Below are positions 35,503 through 50,457 of a DNA stretch of 57,504 nt, piece by piece. The notes below the pieces were generated by a model. That model was not told the DNA's origin. It saw only the letters and a list, made by a program, of their open reading frames with translations, and searched no databases. Position numbers and translations under genes: made by a program. The stretch is from an uncultured Acidobacteriia bacterium (lineage in GTDB: Bacteria > Acidobacteriota > Terriglobia > Bryobacterales > Bryobacteraceae): the NCBI GenBank assembly GCA_903875575.1, contig CAIQWJ010000014.1, positions 1 through 57,504 on the forward strand, read 5' to 3'. Numbering within the stretch: position 1 is the stretch's first letter; each line of letters opens with the position of its first letter.

Positions 35503-36351
35503 TCAGACGACTTTGCTGGCTCGCTTCCTGCGCTGGACAGCAAGGCAAAGGACAGCCAATCCCAATCCCATTGTGGCGGTGGTCGCGGGTTCCGGCGTGG
35601 CCGCCGGGACAGTGAGCACGCCGGAGATCCCATAAAGGTGGTTGCCCGCTGTCAGGTCGCCATAGTCGCTATAGGCTATCCAGTTCGCGCCTGACAATCC
35701 GGCGGTAGATCCTGAAAATCCGTCGATACAATAAATATGGGCTCCGGTGGTACCCAGGGCGTATCCGGCGGAAGACCCATCTGCGTTGCTTCCCGTCCAT
35801 ACGTAGCCGTCCGTCTTAACTCCGGATTCGTTATAGTCGATTGGGCTGAAAAGCGAAGTATAGGTGCTCTGACCAAACAGCCCCGTTGCATATGTCGTGG
35901 TCGCGTCGTCAGCCACTAATTGGCCGGCAAGGTTATAGATTGGTACCCCGGGGTCCTGGCCGACGTTGCTGATTGCGCTGACCGTGGCGGTGGAGCCAAT
36001 CACACTCCAGGTGGCGCCGAGCGCCTGAAGCGCGGCCACACTGTTTGCTTCAGTATTGACCTCCGTGTTGTAGTCCGCGATATTCGCACTGGTGGCGCTC
36101 CAGCCCCCGGCAGTGACAAACGCCAACCGATAGGTGCTTCCCGGTGCCAGCCCGACTGGCAACGTGACGGGGCCAGCCCATGAAGCGGGTGCCACGCACG
36201 CAAGAGCCATCGCCATGATTCCGAATAATCCCATTCCGCCCTTCAGCCTCCGATGGGATTGGGTCAGATAGAACGCCAGGCCGGGCTTCCGGTTGGTCGA
36301 AGCAGGCAGGATCTGTCTGTACCAGTGGTCGTCGTTTTGTTTGATTGTCAT
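35503..36351 (-). CDS. PEP-CTERM sorting domain protein
   Basis: A 282-residue exported protein. The C-terminus has the exosortase signal: TPEPATTATMGLGLAVLCLAV followed by QRRKRA, that is PEP, a hydrophobic helix and an Arg/Lys cluster. The body is Thr/Ser/Gly/Ala-rich without a recognised domain. ATG 36351 has GGAG 11 bases upstream but gives a 39-residue lead before the hydrophobic signal MGLFGIMAMALACVAPASWA; ATG 36234 starts exactly at that signal and is the alternative. It is likely a surface or matrix protein processed by exosortase; no exosortase gene is in the window. Confidence 0.82.
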   Translation of the reverse strand: MTIKQNDDHWYRQILPASTNRKPGLAFYLTQSHRRLKGGMGLFGIMAMALACVAPASWAGPVTLPVGLAPGSTYRLAFVTAGGWSATSANIADYNTEVNTEANSVAALQALGATWSVIGSTATVSAISNVGQDPGVPIYNLAGQLVADDATTTYATGLFGQSTYTSLFSPIDYNESGVKTDGYVWTGSNADGSSAGYALGTTGAHIYCIDGFSGSTAGLSGANWIAYSDYGDLTAGNHLYGISGVLTVPAATPEPATTATMGLGLAVLCLAVQRRKRASKVV

Positions 36352-36705
36352 CAGTCTTGTCTCCAGAGATAGGCCGTGCTTTTTGGTGCCTTGCATTTGC
36401 AACTGTGCAGTTGGACCGCAGCGACGCTTATCAAATATAGACGGGTATGGTCAGGCCCGCACCAATGGCTGCCTGATTTTTGTGTGATGTTTTTCTTATG
36501 TCGCTAACTGGCAGATTCAATTCATCCTGGGACTCAGTCAAGACGAAAAGTTGAGTCGGTGCTGCGTCACCGCAGCGCGCTCCGGAGCGGGACCGTTGCA
36601 TCAGGAAAACCTGCTGAAATTCAGTGCCCCGGCACCGATTCCCCGGATACTCTCGCAGCTCAGTAGTGGAAGTCGAGGTCCAGGTTGTGCTCGCGAAACT
36701 CTCGG
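36352..36705. other. 354-base intergenic region
   Basis: It lies between the stop of the ToxR/TolB gene and the preferred start of the PEP-CTERM gene, both on the minus strand. I see no gene, clear promoter or strong hairpin in it. It is more AT-rich than its neighbours near 36420-36540. Confidence 0.4.
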
Positions 36706-38919: not shown

Positions 38920-39528
38920 CTACAACTTCGGCAACAGCGCCAGCACGCCTTCACTCGGATTCGGAATCACGTGCGCGGCGACCAGTTTCCCCAGGCCTTC
39001 CACCCTGGCCTTGCCCGCATCCACCGCGGCACGCACCGCCGCCACATCGCCCCGGATCACCACGGTGATGAAGCCGCCGCCGAGTTTCTCCCGCGCGACC
39101 ACTTCCACCGCAGCGGTCTTGAGCGCCGTGTCGATAGCCTCAAAGACGGCCGTGTATCCCTGGGTTTCAATCAATCCCAGGGCCAATCCTTTGTGTTGCG
39201 TCATAACTTTCTCCGGATTAAAAACAGTTGGCTGCTCAATGAGCGGACTAAAATCGGGCACGGCCTGCCATGCAAGGTTTGAACCCGGCGCGGGTGCCGG
39301 TATGACATCGGTGACTATGGATGTCCCCATCCCCTGAGCCGCCGCACGCCCGGCATCCACTGCCGCAGCAAGGTCCGCGAGAGTGCCGCCCAGCTTGAGG
39401 CAGACACCCGGACCGTCGTTCAGTTCCAGTTGCAGCAAACGAACGCCGGAACATTTCTCCATGGCGTCGAGCAGCACCATGCCCACCGACCACGCGCCAG
39501 CTTCCACCAGTGCCAGGCCCTGGTTCAG
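38920..39528 (-). CDS. tandem-domain bacterial microcompartment shell protein (BMC-T, PduT-like)
   Basis: A 202-residue protein with two BMC domains. Domain 1 (about 3-80): GLALVEAGAWSVGMVLLDAM, a PduT-like pore region DGPGVCLKLGG with Cys43, and ADLAAAVDAG. Domain 2 (about 115-196) is canonical: LALGLIETQGYTAVFEAIDT, pore LGGGFITVVIRG, AAHVIPNPSEGV. Such trimers of tandem domains form pseudohexagonal shell tiles. The start is taken as CTG 39528: the frame is closed by TGA 15 codons earlier, no ATG or GTG precedes domain 1, GAGG lies 6 bases upstream, and CTG overlaps the aldolase TGA. GTG 39507 would cut the first strand. No other shell gene is nearby. Confidence 0.9.
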   Translation of the reverse strand: MNQGLALVEAGAWSVGMVLLDAMEKCSGVRLLQLELNDGPGVCLKLGGTLADLAAAVDAGRAAAQGMGTSIVTDVIPAPAPGSNLAWQAVPDFSPLIEQPTVFNPEKVMTQHKGLALGLIETQGYTAVFEAIDTALKTAAVEVVAREKLGGGFITVVIRGDVAAVRAAVDAGKARVEGLGKLVAAHVIPNPSEGVLALLPKL

Positions 39529-40571
39529 ACTACGCCTCGCTTGCTGAGCTCAATCATGATGCGGTCCACTAAAACCTTGGGATCCACGTCGATCGCGTCC
39601 GTGTTTGTATTGGTCTGACGCGGCCACACCGACATGGCTGGTCGCACCGGGCAGGAAGCGGGCTTGTCGATCAGTTCAAAATCCGAGATCAGGCAGCGAA
39701 CCATATTCGCCAGCTTGATCCGGTTCTGTTTCTGATCGGCAGTCTGCGGGATACGGGGCTGGCCAAAGTTGAAGCCGCGCGTTTCCGCGCCGGCACGGAA
39801 GCCATCTGGAAATTCGAAAACCTGGAGCATGGCGTCGAAAAGCTCCAGTACACGCTGCTGCCAGACCGAGGCTTCTTCCCATTTCCCCGCGCGGCAAAGC
39901 TCGTACAACCGGCGCGTGACTTCCGGCACCGCGTTGCTGGAAGCGTTGGTACCGCCGTTGGCACCGGCCAGCAGCATCGGGACCAGCACGCAGTCCCAGC
40001 CGGTCAGGAAGACAAAATCGGGTCGGGACGGTCGAATGGCCGCGATCATGCGCACCATTTGCGCCACGTCGCCGGAAGAATCCTTGATGCCAATCACGCG
40101 CGGAAAATCCATGGCCAGGCGCGTGATGGTGTTGACGTCGATCGGAGTCGCGAACAGCGGAATGTTGTAGAGTGTGAGATCAATCGGCGTGTTGCGCGCG
40201 ATTTCCGCGAAGTACGCGTAGGTGGAATCCGGCGAGAGCCGGTAATAAATGGGGGAAACAATGGCCACGGCACGGCAACCCATTTCCGCATAGGCTTCGC
40301 AGGCGGCGAGCGTCTCTTTGACGTTCGCCTCGGCGGCTCCGGCAAGGATGGGGACGCGGCCGCGGGTCTCGCTGACCACGATCTTCATGATCCGGCGTCG
40401 TTCTTCCACCGTGAAGCGCGTGAATTCGCCGGTGGAGCCGTTGGGGTACAGTCCGTGCACGCCCTTGTCGATCAGCCAGGAGATGAAACGCCGCAGTTCC
40501 GCTTCCTGAATTTCTCCGCGCTCATCGAGCGGTACCAGAGTGGGAGTGAAAATGCCTTCGATCGGAGCCAT
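39525..40571 (-). CDS. dihydrodipicolinate synthase/N-acetylneuraminate lyase family aldolase with putative BMC-targeting tail
   Basis: A 348-residue class I aldolase of the DapA/NanA family. Motifs: GSTGEF (45-50), Tyr135 in LYNIPL, Schiff-base Lys163 in GIKDSSGD. The fold normally ends near 300. Here a polar linker (about 302-329) and a terminal amphipathic helix, DPKVLVDRIMIELSKRGVV (330-348), follow. That layout matches encapsulation peptides of microcompartment enzymes, and the next gene, overlapping by 4 bases, is a BMC shell protein. It is unlikely to be the housekeeping DapA; a 2-keto-acid aldol or retro-aldol step is inferred. ATG 40571 has a TATACT -10 at 40586-40581, so the message would be almost leaderless. 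Confidence 0.88.
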   Translation of the reverse strand: MAPIEGIFTPTLVPLDERGEIQEAELRRFISWLIDKGVHGLYPNGSTGEFTRFTVEERRRIMKIVVSETRGRVPILAGAAEANVKETLAACEAYAEMGCRAVAIVSPIYYRLSPDSTYAYFAEIARNTPIDLTLYNIPLFATPIDVNTITRLAMDFPRVIGIKDSSGDVAQMVRMIAAIRPSRPDFVFLTGWDCVLVPMLLAGANGGTNASSNAVPEVTRRLYELCRAGKWEEASVWQQRVLELFDAMLQVFEFPDGFRAGAETRGFNFGQPRIPQTADQKQNRIKLANMVRCLISDFELIDKPASCPVRPAMSVWPRQTNTNTDAIDVDPKVLVDRIMIELSKRGVV

Positions 40572-46172: not shown

Positions 46173-49100
46173 TCACTCACCCGAATCTGTGCGGACCTGC
46201 CCCGTGTGTCCCGCCAATTCCAGTACCCGCGCCTGCACACCCCGCAAATCCAACTTCCCGGTCCCCAACGTAGGAATCGATTCCACCGGATAGATATTCT
46301 CCCGCCTCGGCAGCCACAACTTCGGCAAGTCCGTCTCCGCCAATCGCCGCCACACCTCAGCCGGTTCCATCTCGCTGCCCGCATACAAAACCGCCAGCCG
46401 CTCGCCCCGTTGCTCGTCCGGAATCCCGGTCACCACGCACGCGCGGCTCCCCAGAATCTCGTCGATGTACTCTTCGAGCTTCAGATGCGGCACCATCTCA
46501 CCGGCAATCTTGCTGAACCGCGAAAGCCGGTCACCAATATGCAGAAAACCCTCGGTATCCATAAACGCAAGGTCGCCGGTAACGTAAAACCCGTCATGGC
46601 ATGCCATGGCCGTTCTCTCCGCATCCCCCAGATACCCCAGCATCCGCGCCGGACCGTTCACCAACAGCAACCCAGTCTCGCCAGCAGCAAGCGGCGCCAT
46701 GGTTTCAGGGTTCACAATTCGCAGCGAAACGCGAGGCAATGGCCGACCCACGCTGCCTGCCTTATAGCCCGACCGCTCCCCGTGAACCACATTCACAGAA
46801 ACCGCCGGCCCCATCTCCGTGCACCCATAACCCTCCAGCAGCGTAATCCCAAAGCGCTCTTCGAACGCGGCAGCCACCTTCGGGCGCAGCCGCTCCGCCC
46901 CCACCAGCAAATGCTTGATGCTCGCCAACTGCTCCCGTGTGCAGCGGCGAATGTAAGCCAGACAAAACGTCGGGGTGGAAAGAAACAACGTGGGCCGATG
47001 TTCCGCCGCCAGTTCCCCAATCGTCTTCGCATCCGTGGGATTCGCATGGAAAACAGCTTTGAAACCGTGAATCAGGGGAAACCACAGCCCGTATGTGTAC
47101 CCGAACGAATGAAAGAACGGCAGCACGCCCAGCATGCAGTCCGACCGGTCCACAGAATAGACTTCGCCGGATGACCGCGCATTCGAAAGTAAATTCCAGT
47201 GCGACAGCATCACACCCTTCGGCGTACCCGTGCTGCCACTGGAGAAAATGATCGCAGCCACCTGATCCGGCGCACTGGAACCCGCCAGCAGCCGCAGTGG
47301 CAGCAAACGAGCCTTTGCCGCCGTCAGCGCCTTGCGTACCGGAGTGAATCCCGGCAGCAAATCTTCCAGAAACACGGTCCCGGGCAGTTCCTTGAGTTGC
47401 GCTTTCTCAAGAAACACGCGCGAGGAGAGGACGGTCGTGATCCCGCACCTTGCGATCGCGTTCCGCATCTCACTCTCTCCCGCCGTGAAATTCAGATTCA
47501 CCGACGTCTTGCCCGCCAGCGTCACTCCCAGATTCGCCAGCGCGCCCCCCACTGACGAGGGCAACAGAAGGCCGATCATCTTCGCATCGCCACACTGTTC
47601 CAGCACCCAATCCCGGATCAGCAACGCGCCAGTCAGCGTCTCACCAAACGTGAGCTTTTTTCCGGTGGAATCCGCTACCGCCGTGAAAGACCAATTCCGC
47701 TTCGCCGCGCCAACGAAACGGTGCGCCAACGTGGCATCCGGAGTCTTGCCATACTCCGCCGCGGCGGTTCCCAGTTCCAAAACCCGCTCGTGCAACTGCG
47801 CAGCGGTCGTCCCGCCCGGCATCGCCTTGCCAATGCAAATCGTCACCGGATGCCGCAGACGCAGACGACCCGAACCAAACGGTCGTCCGCCCTTCAGACT
47901 CAACGCGTGCCCCCAAAGCCCGTCGAGGTACACCGGAATAATCGGGATCGATTCATCGCCCCGCGCGATCAGTTCCACGCCCCGTTCAAACGGCCGCACA
48001 TGTGACGTACGGGTGAGTTCGCCCTCGGGGAAAATGCAGACCAACTGCCCCTTGTCCATTTCCGCGCGCGCCGCACGCAGAGCCTTTAACGCATCTTTGG
48101 GCGAGCCCTGCGCCAGCGGGATGGCCTTGAAAAGCTTTACCACCGGGTGCAGCCATTTGTTTTCATAAAGCGGCTGCCACATCAGAAAGCTGATGAACCG
48201 AGGCGTCGCGCACGCGATGAGAATTGCATCCGCATACGAGACATGATTGGACACGATCAGCCCACGGCCCGAAGCCGGAATATTCTCCGCTCCCACAATT
48301 CGTATATTGAAGAAGATCTTCGCACTGCCCCAGATCACCAGCCGCAACAACGATTCCGGCACTACCCACGCAATGTAGACAGTCGCCAGCAGCGTGACAA
48401 TCCCAAGGCCAACCAGTATCCCGGAGGGAGTGAAGTGCAAAACATCATGCAGCAGGTACAGCACGCCGGAAGCCGTCACCACTCCGACCATATTGAAGAA
48501 GCTGTTCGTCGCCTGCAGTCGACCCTTCTCGGCCTGCCCCGCATGATCCTGCAGAAACGCGTTCAACGGCACGATGAACAGACCTGCCGCGAAACCGGCC
48601 AGCAGCAAACACACCGCCATTGTCGAAAACGAATGCGCCGAACCGGCCAGGATTGCCGAGAAGCCCAGCCCCGCCGCGCCGCACGGCACCAGTCCGATCT
48701 CGACATGATCGCCCGAAAGCCAGCCGGCCGCGATACTGCCCACCCCGATTCCGACCGCCAAAGCCGTCACCAGCAGGCCCGTGCGAATTTCCGAAAGATG
48801 CAGGGTTTCGCTGCCCACCAGGATGAGCGTCATCTGAAACAACGCGCCCAGAAACCAGAACCAGGAGATCCCGGCCACCGTCAGCCACAGCGCCCGCTCA
48901 CGCAATAGCCGCTTCGTGCCGGCCCACACGTCACCCAAAGGATTGAGGTTGAAAGGCTGATGGTTGCCGGAGGCCGCCACTTTGGGAATGAAGAGACTGG
49001 CCAGCGAACCCACCACAGCAATCCCCAGCAGCATCCCCCCCATAACCATCGGTTCGCCCTTCCAGCGGGCAAACAGTAAAGAGCCCACGCTCGTCCCGAA

Positions 49101-49613
49101 CACAATCGCAGCAAACGTGGATAATTCCAGCAGTCCATTCGCCTTCGTCAGCCGTGCCTCGTCCAGCATCTCCGGCAGGATTCCGTACTTTGCAGGACTG
49201 AAGAAGTTCGCCTGCGTCGCCAACATGAACAGGACAACCAGCAGCAGAGGCAGACTATGCGCCATCAGAGCGACGATGCCGAAAGCCATGGTCACCATTT
49301 CAAACGCCTTCGAGTATTGCAGTACGCGGGTCTTGCTGTAACGGTCCGCCAATTGCCCCGCATAGCCGGCAAAAAGCAGAAATGGGATCACGAAAACAGC
49401 ACCGGCAATCGCGAGGTAACGAGAACCCGCAATCTGATCGGCCGCCAGTTCCACGGCTGCTACCGACACGATCATCTTATACACGTTGTCGTTGAAGGCC
49501 CCCAGGAATTGGGTCCAGAGAAAGCACTGGAAGCCGTGGTCGCGAAGAAGGCTGCCGTAGCCTTCGCCCTGGTGAGTCCCCTCGGACTGCGGCTGAATGC
49601 TGTTGAGTGTCAT
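46173..49613 (-). CDS. fused LplT-type MFS transporter, acyltransferase and acyl-ACP synthetase (Aas-like)
   Basis: A 1146-residue fusion. Residues about 20-430 are an MFS lysophospholipid flippase (FLWTQFLGAFNDNVYKMIVS, GYAGQLADRYSKTRVLQYSK). About 440-630 is a PlsC-type acyltransferase (SNHVSYAD for NHxxxxD, and FPEGELTR). About 640-1140 is an AMP-binding acyl-activating enzyme (IIFSSGSTGTPKGVMLSHWN, GYGCTEMGPA, catalytic Lys in GTGKLDLR). In Enterobacteria LplT and Aas are separate proteins that import and re-acylate lysophosphatidylethanolamine; here one chain would do both. Its 3' end abuts the GntR relic. Confidence 0.92.
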   Translation of the reverse strand: MTLNSIQPQSEGTHQGEGYGSLLRDHGFQCFLWTQFLGAFNDNVYKMIVSVAAVELAADQIAGSRYLAIAGAVFVIPFLLFAGYAGQLADRYSKTRVLQYSKAFEMVTMAFGIVALMAHSLPLLLVVLFMLATQANFFSPAKYGILPEMLDEARLTKANGLLELSTFAAIVFGTSVGSLLFARWKGEPMVMGGMLLGIAVVGSLASLFIPKVAASGNHQPFNLNPLGDVWAGTKRLLRERALWLTVAGISWFWFLGALFQMTLILVGSETLHLSEIRTGLLVTALAVGIGVGSIAAGWLSGDHVEIGLVPCGAAGLGFSAILAGSAHSFSTMAVCLLLAGFAAGLFIVPLNAFLQDHAGQAEKGRLQATNSFFNMVGVVTASGVLYLLHDVLHFTPSGILVGLGIVTLLATVYIAWVVPESLLRLVIWGSAKIFFNIRIVGAENIPASGRGLIVSNHVSYADAILIACATPRFISFLMWQPLYENKWLHPVVKLFKAIPLAQGSPKDALKALRAARAEMDKGQLVCIFPEGELTRTSHVRPFERGVELIARGDESIPIIPVYLDGLWGHALSLKGGRPFGSGRLRLRHPVTICIGKAMPGGTTAAQLHERVLELGTAAAEYGKTPDATLAHRFVGAAKRNWSFTAVADSTGKKLTFGETLTGALLIRDWVLEQCGDAKMIGLLLPSSVGGALANLGVTLAGKTSVNLNFTAGESEMRNAIARCGITTVLSSRVFLEKAQLKELPGTVFLEDLLPGFTPVRKALTAAKARLLPLRLLAGSSAPDQVAAIIFSSGSTGTPKGVMLSHWNLLSNARSSGEVYSVDRSDCMLGVLPFFHSFGYTYGLWFPLIHGFKAVFHANPTDAKTIGELAAEHRPTLFLSTPTFCLAYIRRCTREQLASIKHLLVGAERLRPKVAAAFEERFGITLLEGYGCTEMGPAVSVNVVHGERSGYKAGSVGRPLPRVSLRIVNPETMAPLAAGETGLLLVNGPARMLGYLGDAERTAMACHDGFYVTGDLAFMDTEGFLHIGDRLSRFSKIAGEMVPHLKLEEYIDEILGSRACVVTGIPDEQRGERLAVLYAGSEMEPAEVWRRLAETDLPKLWLPRRENIYPVESIPTLGTGKLDLRGVQARVLELAGHTGQVRTDSGE

Positions 49614-49707: not shown

Positions 49708-50457
49708 CTATGACGTACATTTTTTGCTCTGGAAAGTACAATGAATGCCAAACAACACGCCAAGTGCGACCAGCAAGAGGCCGAATGTACCCGGCTCCGG
49801 AGTCTGGATCAATTGGAACCCCAGATTGTCCGCCGCGGCGTTCAGGATTGTCCCATTGAACCTGGTGAATAACAAGGCAACGTCCAGGGAACGCGTGCCG
49901 GCAGGAACAAGCCCCTGAGATACCGACAATTGAAAGTATCCCTGGCTCGTCACGGGAGAGCCCAGCGCAGTCAGTTCCGCCTGATCGAGCGAAGCGATGC
50001 CCGTGCCGCCAAGGTCATTCCCGAGGCCATCGACAAAACGAACGGAAAACGCCACTGAATCGATTGCACCGGTCGCCGTCTGCCGGGCCGACGACAGCCA
50101 GCCGCGCATATCGAAATTTACCCGCCCCGCGTCCACCAAAGCACTCTGATCACCGATGAAAATCGACTGCGTCAGTTCGCTGCTGGCCTGGTCGCCACCC
50201 AAAAAATAGCCGGCACCAAAGGCCTCGGTACCCGGATCCGTGACGTAGTGAAAACAGCAAAAATCCGGGTAATTCACATAGGATGCGTGCCCTGTCCGGG
50301 TCCAGTCGGTAAAGTCCGCAACACCAAAAGTAACCCCCGGGTTCACCAGTGTGTAGGACTCTGCGTCACCGTTCACGATCAGATTGGTGCCGAATGTCGT
50401 CGCGAAAGCCCCGACTCCTAATACCAACGTCAGTGTGCAAAGCCGCGTCAGCATCAT
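49708..50457 (-). CDS. PEP-CTERM protein, downstream copy of tandem pair
   Basis: A 249-residue exported protein. Signal peptide CTLTLVLGVGAFATTF, then GTNLIVNGDAESYTLVNPGV, typical of DUF642-like PEP-CTERM proteins, and the C-terminal sorting signal TPEPGTFGLLLVALGVLFG with a short basic tail (QSKK). It shares long stretches with the gene at 50454 (DPGTEAFG, GYFLGGDQASS, LTQSIFIGDQSALVDAG). The start overlaps the upstream stop by 4 bases. Confidence 0.85.
   Translation of the reverse strand: MMLTRLCTLTLVLGVGAFATTFGTNLIVNGDAESYTLVNPGVTFGVADFTDWTRTGHASYVNYPDFCCFHYVTDPGTEAFGAGYFLGGDQASSELTQSIFIGDQSALVDAGRVNFDMRGWLSSARQTATGAIDSVAFSVRFVDGLGNDLGGTGIASLDQAELTALGSPVTSQGYFQLSVSQGLVPAGTRSLDVALLFTRFNGTILNAAADNLGFQLIQTPEPGTFGLLLVALGVLFGIHCTFQSKKCTS

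Follow-up and report, generated by a model that had tools for sequence, protein, structure and literature searches.

A tailed Schiff-base aldolase and a tandem-domain shell gene with a conserved internal start signal as a likely satellite module of an acidobacterial metabolosome

On the minus strand of the 57,504-nucleotide stretch of acidobacterial DNA analyzed here (the window), a gene for a class I aldolase of the PF00701 (DapA/NanA-type) family overlaps a gene for a shell protein with two microcompartment (BMC) domains. We consider it likely that the two genes form a satellite module of a PVM-like metabolosome (ACI-like in relatives), composed of a tail-loaded aldolase and a shell gene that specifies two different tiles. 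An initial annotation of this DNA had interpreted the aldolase as cargo of a compartment whose other shell genes lie elsewhere, and the core of this interpretation is supported by the analyses below. The probable dual-start nature of the shell gene, absent from that annotation, is judging by sequence the pair's most novel feature.

RESULTS

Organization of the gene pair

The positions of the two genes and of their functional elements are listed in Table 1. The four-base overlap noted in the initial annotation is real given a CTG start of the shell gene, with CTG (39528–39526) lying over the aldolase stop codon TGA (39527–39525) to form CTGA. At the equivalent place, 37 of 39 parsed loci show an NTGA overlap (19 CTG, 8 GTG, 7 ATG and 3 TTG; five further loci were not parsed), while of the two exceptions one has TAATG (L038) and the other is probably misparsed (L086). 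Pairing with the anti-Shine-Dalgarno (anti-SD) sequence was found upstream of the overlap start in the parsed loci. From this conservation, the CTG reads as the true, probably weak, start of the shell gene. The start given in the list of open reading frames (ORFs), a GTG at 39507, was rejected because this position falls within the first strand of domain 1.

Table 1. Features of the aldolase/shell gene pair (window coordinates)
Feature	Position	Strand	Details or basis
PF00701 (DapA/NanA-type) class I aldolase gene	39525..40571	-	348 aa, start ATG at 40571
Aldolase fold, codons 1–308	39648..40571	-	AlphaFold2 model and sequence
Aldolase linker, codons 309–329, hypervariable, disordered in model	39585..39647	-	Alignment and model
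Aldolase C-terminal helix, putative encapsulation peptide, codons 330–348	39528..39584	-	Helix 331–344 in model
GAGG, candidate Shine-Dalgarno of shell gene, inside aldolase tail codons	39535..39538	-	Sequence
Tandem-BMC shell gene (BMC-T, 202 aa), CTG start overlapping aldolase TGA	38920..39528	-	
GGAG, candidate Shine-Dalgarno of internal start	39211..39214	-	Family-wide pairing beats synonymous null
Proposed second product, BMC-H of 94 aa from internal ATG 39204–39202	38920..39204	-	

The neighbors of the pair in the window are unrelated, and its flanks differ between most genera, with some relatives sharing a few flanking genes. That the pair is kept while its flanks differ counts in favor of a satellite module. 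No sugar-acid pathway gene was recognized among the 20 ORFs scanned of the 90 in the window with 150 aa or more. Elsewhere in the window, the region 49708–50457 carries a PEP-CTERM motif (PF07589), a similar PEP-type end is seen by eye in 35503–36402, and 46173–49613 encodes a three-domain fusion of an MFS transporter, an acyltransferase and an AMP-binding enzyme.

A PF00701 aldolase below the NCBIfam subfamily cut-offs

Schiff-base aldolases of the PF00701 family are marked by a catalytic Lys, a catalytic Tyr and a G-S/T-T-G-E motif. The window enzyme matches PF00701 over residues 5–291 (profile search, E 3e-58), carries K163, Y135 and GSTGE, and yields an AlphaFold2 model with a mean pLDDT of 88.3. 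Tyr135, Lys163, G45, S46, G48 and E49 are invariant in a 41-row alignment, in which T47 is conserved at 90% or more, bearing out the DapA/NanA-type assignment that the initial annotation had based on these residues. All NCBIfam matches of the aldolase fall below cut-off, including dapA (150 bits vs 206), nanA (136 bits vs 382), KdgD and the archaeal KDG aldolase. In DHDPS (DapA) proper, the YN(I/V)P motif is followed by an Arg with a role in that enzyme; the window protein has Phe140 at this position, which is occupied by Arg in the three PDB relatives aligned, each of them named DHDPS. By its NCBIfam scores the enzyme is neither DapA proper, against which Phe140 in the place of the Arg also speaks, nor N-acetylneuraminate lyase (NanA).

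A conserved C-terminal helix on a hypervariable linker

Beyond the normal end of the fold, the initial annotation had described a linker and an amphipathic terminal helix. The disordered linker and the helix are borne out by the model, in which residues 316–325 have a pLDDT below 50 and a helix spans residues 331–344, while the amphipathicity proved weak in the window copy. Across 40 acidobacterial homologues, column conservation (mean majority fraction) is 0.83 for the fold, 0.23 for the linker (with 51% gaps) and 0.64 for the helix, and a helix-like end is also recognizable in planctomycete homologues. A strict helix pattern of spaced hydrophobic residues, scored at termini, is present at the C-terminus in 33 of 40 aldolases from acidobacteria and in 20 of 21 from planctomycetes. 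Among control frames of these loci the corresponding numbers are 4 of 469 and 5 of 291; the control frames were taken from our own ORF picker and may include some that are not real genes. The window aldolase is one of the seven acidobacterial enzymes that miss this pattern. The 14-residue helical moment exceeds the shuffle mean in all 40 acidobacterial tails and does so by more than 1 sd in 37 of them; it exceeds the mean by 0.39 sd in the window copy, whose 18-residue moment is below the shuffle mean. By these calculated measures, amphipathicity is strong for the family and weak for the window's own copy, for which we do not claim it.

The strict pattern also occurs on core enzymes of the main BMC locus of the source genome (contig C74, see below), namely at the C-terminus of a class II aldolase and at the N-termini of an aldehyde dehydrogenase (AldDH) and PduL, in line with the similar tails on pathway enzymes that the initial annotation had proposed to look for. 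In four planctomycete main loci, it is found on the class II aldolase and AldDH, not on PduL or acetate kinase (AckA). The three other PF00701 frames of the source genome encode only 296–313 aa, and the two inspected have no such tail. Part of the conserved Lys-Arg-Gly end of the tail may reflect the ribosome-binding site of the shell gene, as this site sits in those codons.

Encapsulation peptides (EPs) are described as binding a groove between shell tiles (PMC11157265). The features by which they are recognized, an amphipathic helix of 15–20 residues attached to a terminus by a flexible linker, are present in the aldolase, weakly so in the window copy. We infer that the tail is a putative EP, resembling the terminal helices of the compartment's core enzymes.

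A PVM-like main locus on another contig

The source genome contains seven PF00936 matches, two of which lie in the window gene, and three PF03319 matches; the remaining five PF00936 and all PF03319 matches are on contig C74. The shell protein, called lone in the initial annotation, is therefore lone only locally, and other shell genes do lie elsewhere, as that annotation had anticipated; it had named a genome with no other BMC gene as evidence against its reading. C74 encodes, in this order, a DeoR-type regulator, a class II aldolase, two BMC-P, an AldDH, a further BMC-P, a BMC-H, a tandem BMC protein, PduL and AckA, with RnfC-like and PduT-like proteins (both below NCBIfam cut-offs) following the acetate kinase on the opposite strand. 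The AldDH is of the EutE/PduP kind (best NCBIfam match NF011927, above cut-off), which is CoA-acylating.

Judging by gene content, the C74 locus resembles a PVM-like metabolosome: a DeoR-type regulator, class II aldolase, AldDH, PduL, AckA, BMC-H and three BMC-P all fit the PVM/PVM-like type (Axen et al. 2014; Sutter et al. 2021). Axen et al. (2014, PMC4207490) assign a PVM-like locus to Candidatus Solibacter usitatus; all loci of this kind include a class II aldolase, and most of them a DeoR regulator. Because the main locus with its BMC-H and BMC-P genes is on another contig, the window pair, which lies distal from it and comprises a shell protein plus an enzyme, is a satellite locus by the definition of Sutter et al. 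(2021).

Fifteen stretches around BMC genes of other Bryobacteraceae (L061–L075) were inspected for the same genes. A class II aldolase, BMC-H and three BMC-P occur together in four of them (L064, L068, L070 and L075, the last from a genome without the aldolase pair); others hold partial sets and L073 none of these genes. The AldDH gene adjoins BMC-H in L069, L071, L075 and L066, and in G027 and G007, two of the genomes with the joint set, AldDH lies with BMC-H on a different contig from that set.

Two further observations concern these loci. The C74 class II aldolase (L011, 8899–10017) has about 100 residues ahead of its PF00596 domain, and a similar sequence (FVCE-DVR-AIAAKKKI...TPSARDLG) is found at the C-terminus of AldDH in L069, L071 and L075, possibly representing a movable BMC-associated domain. 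The BMC-H and AldDH genes of L075, L069 and L071 are followed by a gene (8523–9017 in L075) for a protein of about 165 aa that has no Pfam match and ends in PMGG...S(R/K)N in all three.

Co-occurrence in Bryobacteraceae

The aldolase was detected in 42 of 150 Bryobacteraceae genomes (E 1e-40 or better) and the shell orthologue in the same 42 (E about 1e-39 or better, with no match stronger than 1.6e-23 in the genomes lacking the aldolase). By coordinates, the two genes are adjacent in 41 of the 42, and in G019 they lie on separate contigs. A PF00936 match is present in 113 of the 150 genomes, and none of the 37 genomes without one has the aldolase (Fisher p 1e-6; as the genomes are related, Fisher values and codon counts, here and below, overstate independence). 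Since the pair itself carries PF00936, matches were counted outside the pair; all 42 genomes have them, 41 with four or more and G120 with two, one of which is on another contig. A BMC match lies directly downstream of the aldolase in all 45 fetched acidobacterial loci (40 distinct aldolases), although the L046 sequence can be read only over part of domain 1. The aldolase of L050, a record titled Arcobacter sp., is identical to that of L040 (Bryobacteraceae), and this record is probably a mislabeled bin. Neither gene is present in four congeners sampled, and in a wider sample of the phylum (396 genomes, few of them Bryobacteraceae) only the source genome matched at E 1e-60. The co-occurrence of the two genes is not due to chance.

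Separate genes in planctomycetes

Aldolase–BMC co-occurrence among planctomycetes was assessed in a single family, that of the L058 genome (labeled Rubripirellula; 60 genomes). Fifty of these genomes have the aldolase and 56 have PF00936, with all 50 among the 56 and the aldolase in none of the four BMC-free genomes. The shell orthologue (E 1e-30) is present in 33 genomes, 32 of which also have the aldolase, G582 being the exception (Fisher p 0.003). As the genomes with the shell protein are nested among those with the aldolase, the tile seems to serve the enzyme and not the reverse; as 18 of the 50 holders are without the shell protein, the tile is not needed for the enzyme.

No BMC genes were found near the planctomycete aldolase in 20 loci of 16 kb or in the L058 locus, and no aldolase near the shell gene in 12 shell-gene loci. 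In a phylum-wide planctomycete sample, the aldolase occurs in 22 of 294 genomes, 21 of the 22 show the tail pattern, and none has a BMC domain within about 1.5 kb of the aldolase (one, L163, having no readable frame). The aldolase flanks revealed no pathway in these organisms, the two families scanned being glycosyltransferase-like and membrane pyrophosphatase. Planctomycete homologues share the tail without neighboring BMC genes. This situation is literally the one that the initial annotation had named as speaking against its reading, yet it does not refute the status of the aldolase as cargo, because all 50 family holders have BMC genes elsewhere. Rather, tails without neighboring BMC genes in BMC-positive genomes suggest that the tail goes with the compartment, not with an adjacent shell gene.

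In FastTree phylogenies, acidobacterial and planctomycete sequences form separate groups, with supports of 0.73 and 0.42 for the aldolase (outgroup-rooted) and of 0.995 and 0.988 for the shell protein (midpoint-rooted).

A conserved internal start signal in the shell gene

The two BMC domains of the shell protein, as seen in the initial annotation, were recovered both by profile search (two PF00936 stretches, E 3e-36) and in a structural model (two BMC-like folds, mean pLDDT 89.2); with two tandem PF00936 domains, the full-length product classifies as a BMC-T. Every one of 55 distinct orthologues carrying the domain-2 motif (44 acidobacterial and 11 planctomycete; L046, not fully readable, was left out) has an in-frame ATG or GTG in the linker between the two domains, 9–16 codons ahead of this motif, while four other 8-codon windows hold ATG/GTG in 4, 17, 21 and 22 of the 55. 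L130, the sole intact orthologue missed by the motif, carries an ATG at an identical distance. Column -12, taken as a fixed position, holds Met (ATG) in 26 orthologues, Val, encoded by GTG in all cases, in 17, and another residue in 12, the start codon being displaced by one to three codons in these. As GTG accounts for 473 of 980 Val codons elsewhere in the genes, the p-value for all-GTG at column -12 is 5e-6. Seven parsimony changes of the start residue were counted on the tree (49 rows, one of them unlabeled).

The candidate internal starts are also preceded by sequences with the capacity to pair with the anti-SD. Mean pairing over the upstream 14 bases is -6.45 kcal/mol at the internal starts, with a small bias because the better-pairing of two start candidates was taken where there were two, compared to -3.18 kcal/mol at 582 other in-frame ATG/GTG and -6.73 kcal/mol at 14 ordinary BMC-H starts. 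A synonymous-codon null gave -3.81 (sd 0.28), and 0 of 300 replicates were as low as observed. Pairing of -5 kcal/mol or better is found at 43 of 55 internal sites. This level is by itself not uncommon, as 158 of the 582 other in-frame ATG/GTG also reach it, along with 24% of all 9112 codon positions, the all-codon background being compared by the share that reaches -5; 12 of the 55 internal sites pair more weakly, and L032 has no clear motif. In the window copy, a GGAG precedes the ATG that would initiate a 94-residue BMC-H (Table 1).

Conservation of domain 2 is 0.88 (42 of 87 positions invariant) vs 0.63 for domain 1 (8 of 83), as expected if domain 2 serves in two proteins. In addition, domain 2 is near-canonical for a BMC-H, sharing 45–53% identity with frames as long as an ordinary BMC-H. 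The control scan caught only two further distinct tandem BMC proteins; both lack such an internal codon, too small a number to carry weight. A short product with a single PF00936 domain and its own start thus has a strong conservation signal, and on this basis we suggest that the shell gene probably makes both a BMC-T and, via the internal start, a 94-residue BMC-H.

DISCUSSION

Based on these results, we propose that the C-terminal helix would load a pyruvate-type aldolase into the compartment, where a 2-keto-3-deoxy sugar acid would be split into pyruvate and a short aldehyde that the resident AldDH would then take onward. The shell gene would supply BMC-T from a weak codon at the aldolase stop (CTG in the window) and, as a second tile, a BMC-H made from domain 2 by initiation at an internal codon that has a Shine-Dalgarno-like site of its own, and the proportions of cargo, trimers and hexamers would be set by one transcript. 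The trimeric or hexameric tile may also have a part in passing substrate or product. An aldol or retro-aldol step on a 2-keto acid, as suggested in the initial annotation, is what we infer for the enzyme, and a retro-aldol split to pyruvate and an aldehyde fits the presence of an EutE/PduP-kind AldDH in the compartment. Our best guess for the aldehyde would be L-lactaldehyde, derived from 2-keto-3-deoxy-L-fuconate or -rhamnonate; it may be favored because lactaldehyde is described as handled in PVM-type compartments (PMC8857213) and because a DapA-named enzyme of Campylobacter is assigned to a route that converts L-fucose to pyruvate and lactaldehyde (PMC9100392). Taken to its full extent, the proposal is that one gene gives rise, by internal translation initiation, to trimeric BMC-T and hexameric BMC-H tiles, that this gene is coupled to a Schiff-base aldolase residing in the compartment, and that a single transcript thereby sets the stoichiometry of a plug-in entry module whose two parts occur in both phyla, opening a second sugar-acid route into a fucose/rhamnose-type metabolosome; to this combined reading we give an even chance.

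The reaction is the part of the proposal with the strongest competitor. The PF00701 superfamily covers many aldol additions and cleavages, and the aldolase could be cargo and still catalyze an addition, or a cleavage yielding glycolaldehyde, glyceraldehyde or glyoxylate, unrelated to lactaldehyde. With Phe140 in place of the DHDPS Arg and no NCBIfam subfamily cut-off reached, such chemistry is a serious possibility, if somewhat short of an even one, the lactaldehyde handling of PVM-type compartments and the Campylobacter L-fucose enzyme cited above speaking against it. Much less probable is that the helix serves oligomerization or regulation of a cytosolic aldolase, with the shell gene coupled to it by a chance operon formation. 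Retention of the tail in planctomycetes away from any BMC gene and the weak amphipathicity of the window copy would agree with such a role, but in both family samples the aldolase is confined to BMC-positive genomes, the helix is conserved behind a hypervariable linker and its pattern recurs on core BMC enzymes, and the other PF00701 frames of the source genome are shorter, without a tail in the two inspected.

As to the shell gene, the internal ATG/GTG and its purine-rich leader might be an unused relic of a fusion of two BMC-H, with BMC-T as the only product. A near-canonical domain 2 is what a tandem fusion would be expected to leave; however, retention of the codon in a variable linker across all 55 orthologues, which come from two phyla, the exchange of ATG for GTG and pairing beyond the synonymous null make a relic unlikely, while the codon's absence from two other tandem BMC proteins, too few to weigh, adds little. 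Another route to the long shell protein, frameshifting from the aldolase to give an aldolase–BMC-T fusion in place of initiation at CTG, draws on the unusual CTG at the overlap in 19 of 39 parsed loci. We regard it as very improbable, as ATG, GTG or TTG replace the CTG at the exact place, with anti-SD pairing upstream, and as the planctomycete shell gene is not beside the aldolase.

Returning to the preferred reading, a tail-loaded aldolase with a two-tile shell gene, the pair shares features with several known systems. The main locus is PVM-like, but the satellite aldolase is a Schiff-base enzyme and unrelated in type. The ACI type, described mainly from Acidobacteria subdivisions 4 and 6 (PMC8217296), is resembled in relatives by the four stretches with a class II aldolase, BMC-H and three BMC-P together and by the AldDH and BMC-H on a separate contig in G027 and G007, an arrangement that is part of its description (Sutter et al. 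2021, PMC8217296), whereas a satellite of a DapA-type aldolase and a BMC-T is not part of that description as available (PMC8217296). Satellite "EUT modules" comprise EutA/B/C and an EutL-type BMC-T and are read as a functional extension (PMC8217296); like the present pair, they join a signature enzyme to its own trimeric shell protein at a distal locus, but the enzyme class differs, and in the present pair the gene for the shell protein overlaps that for the enzyme and apparently specifies two tiles. A precedent is PduB/PduB', in which a single reading frame with two starts gives two shell proteins (PMC9132943). PduB', however, lacks only a 37-residue N-terminal extension (PMC9132943), while the short form proposed here would lose a whole BMC domain, turning a trimeric into a hexameric tile.

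The term pfam00701 does not occur in the main texts of PMC4207490 and PMC8217296, and we found no earlier description of a PF00701 enzyme in a BMC or of a dual-start shell gene in the open-access literature covered. We place the pair as a new satellite form among the known metabolosomes. In planctomycetes the enzyme and the tile are encoded away from one another as well as from the main locus, which suggests why such cargo could be missed. If our proposal is correct, it would add an enzyme class to the metabolosome cargo found in planctomycetes and soil acidobacteria, and would show that a single gene with two starts can set shell composition, which would bear on the balance between BMC-T and BMC-H.
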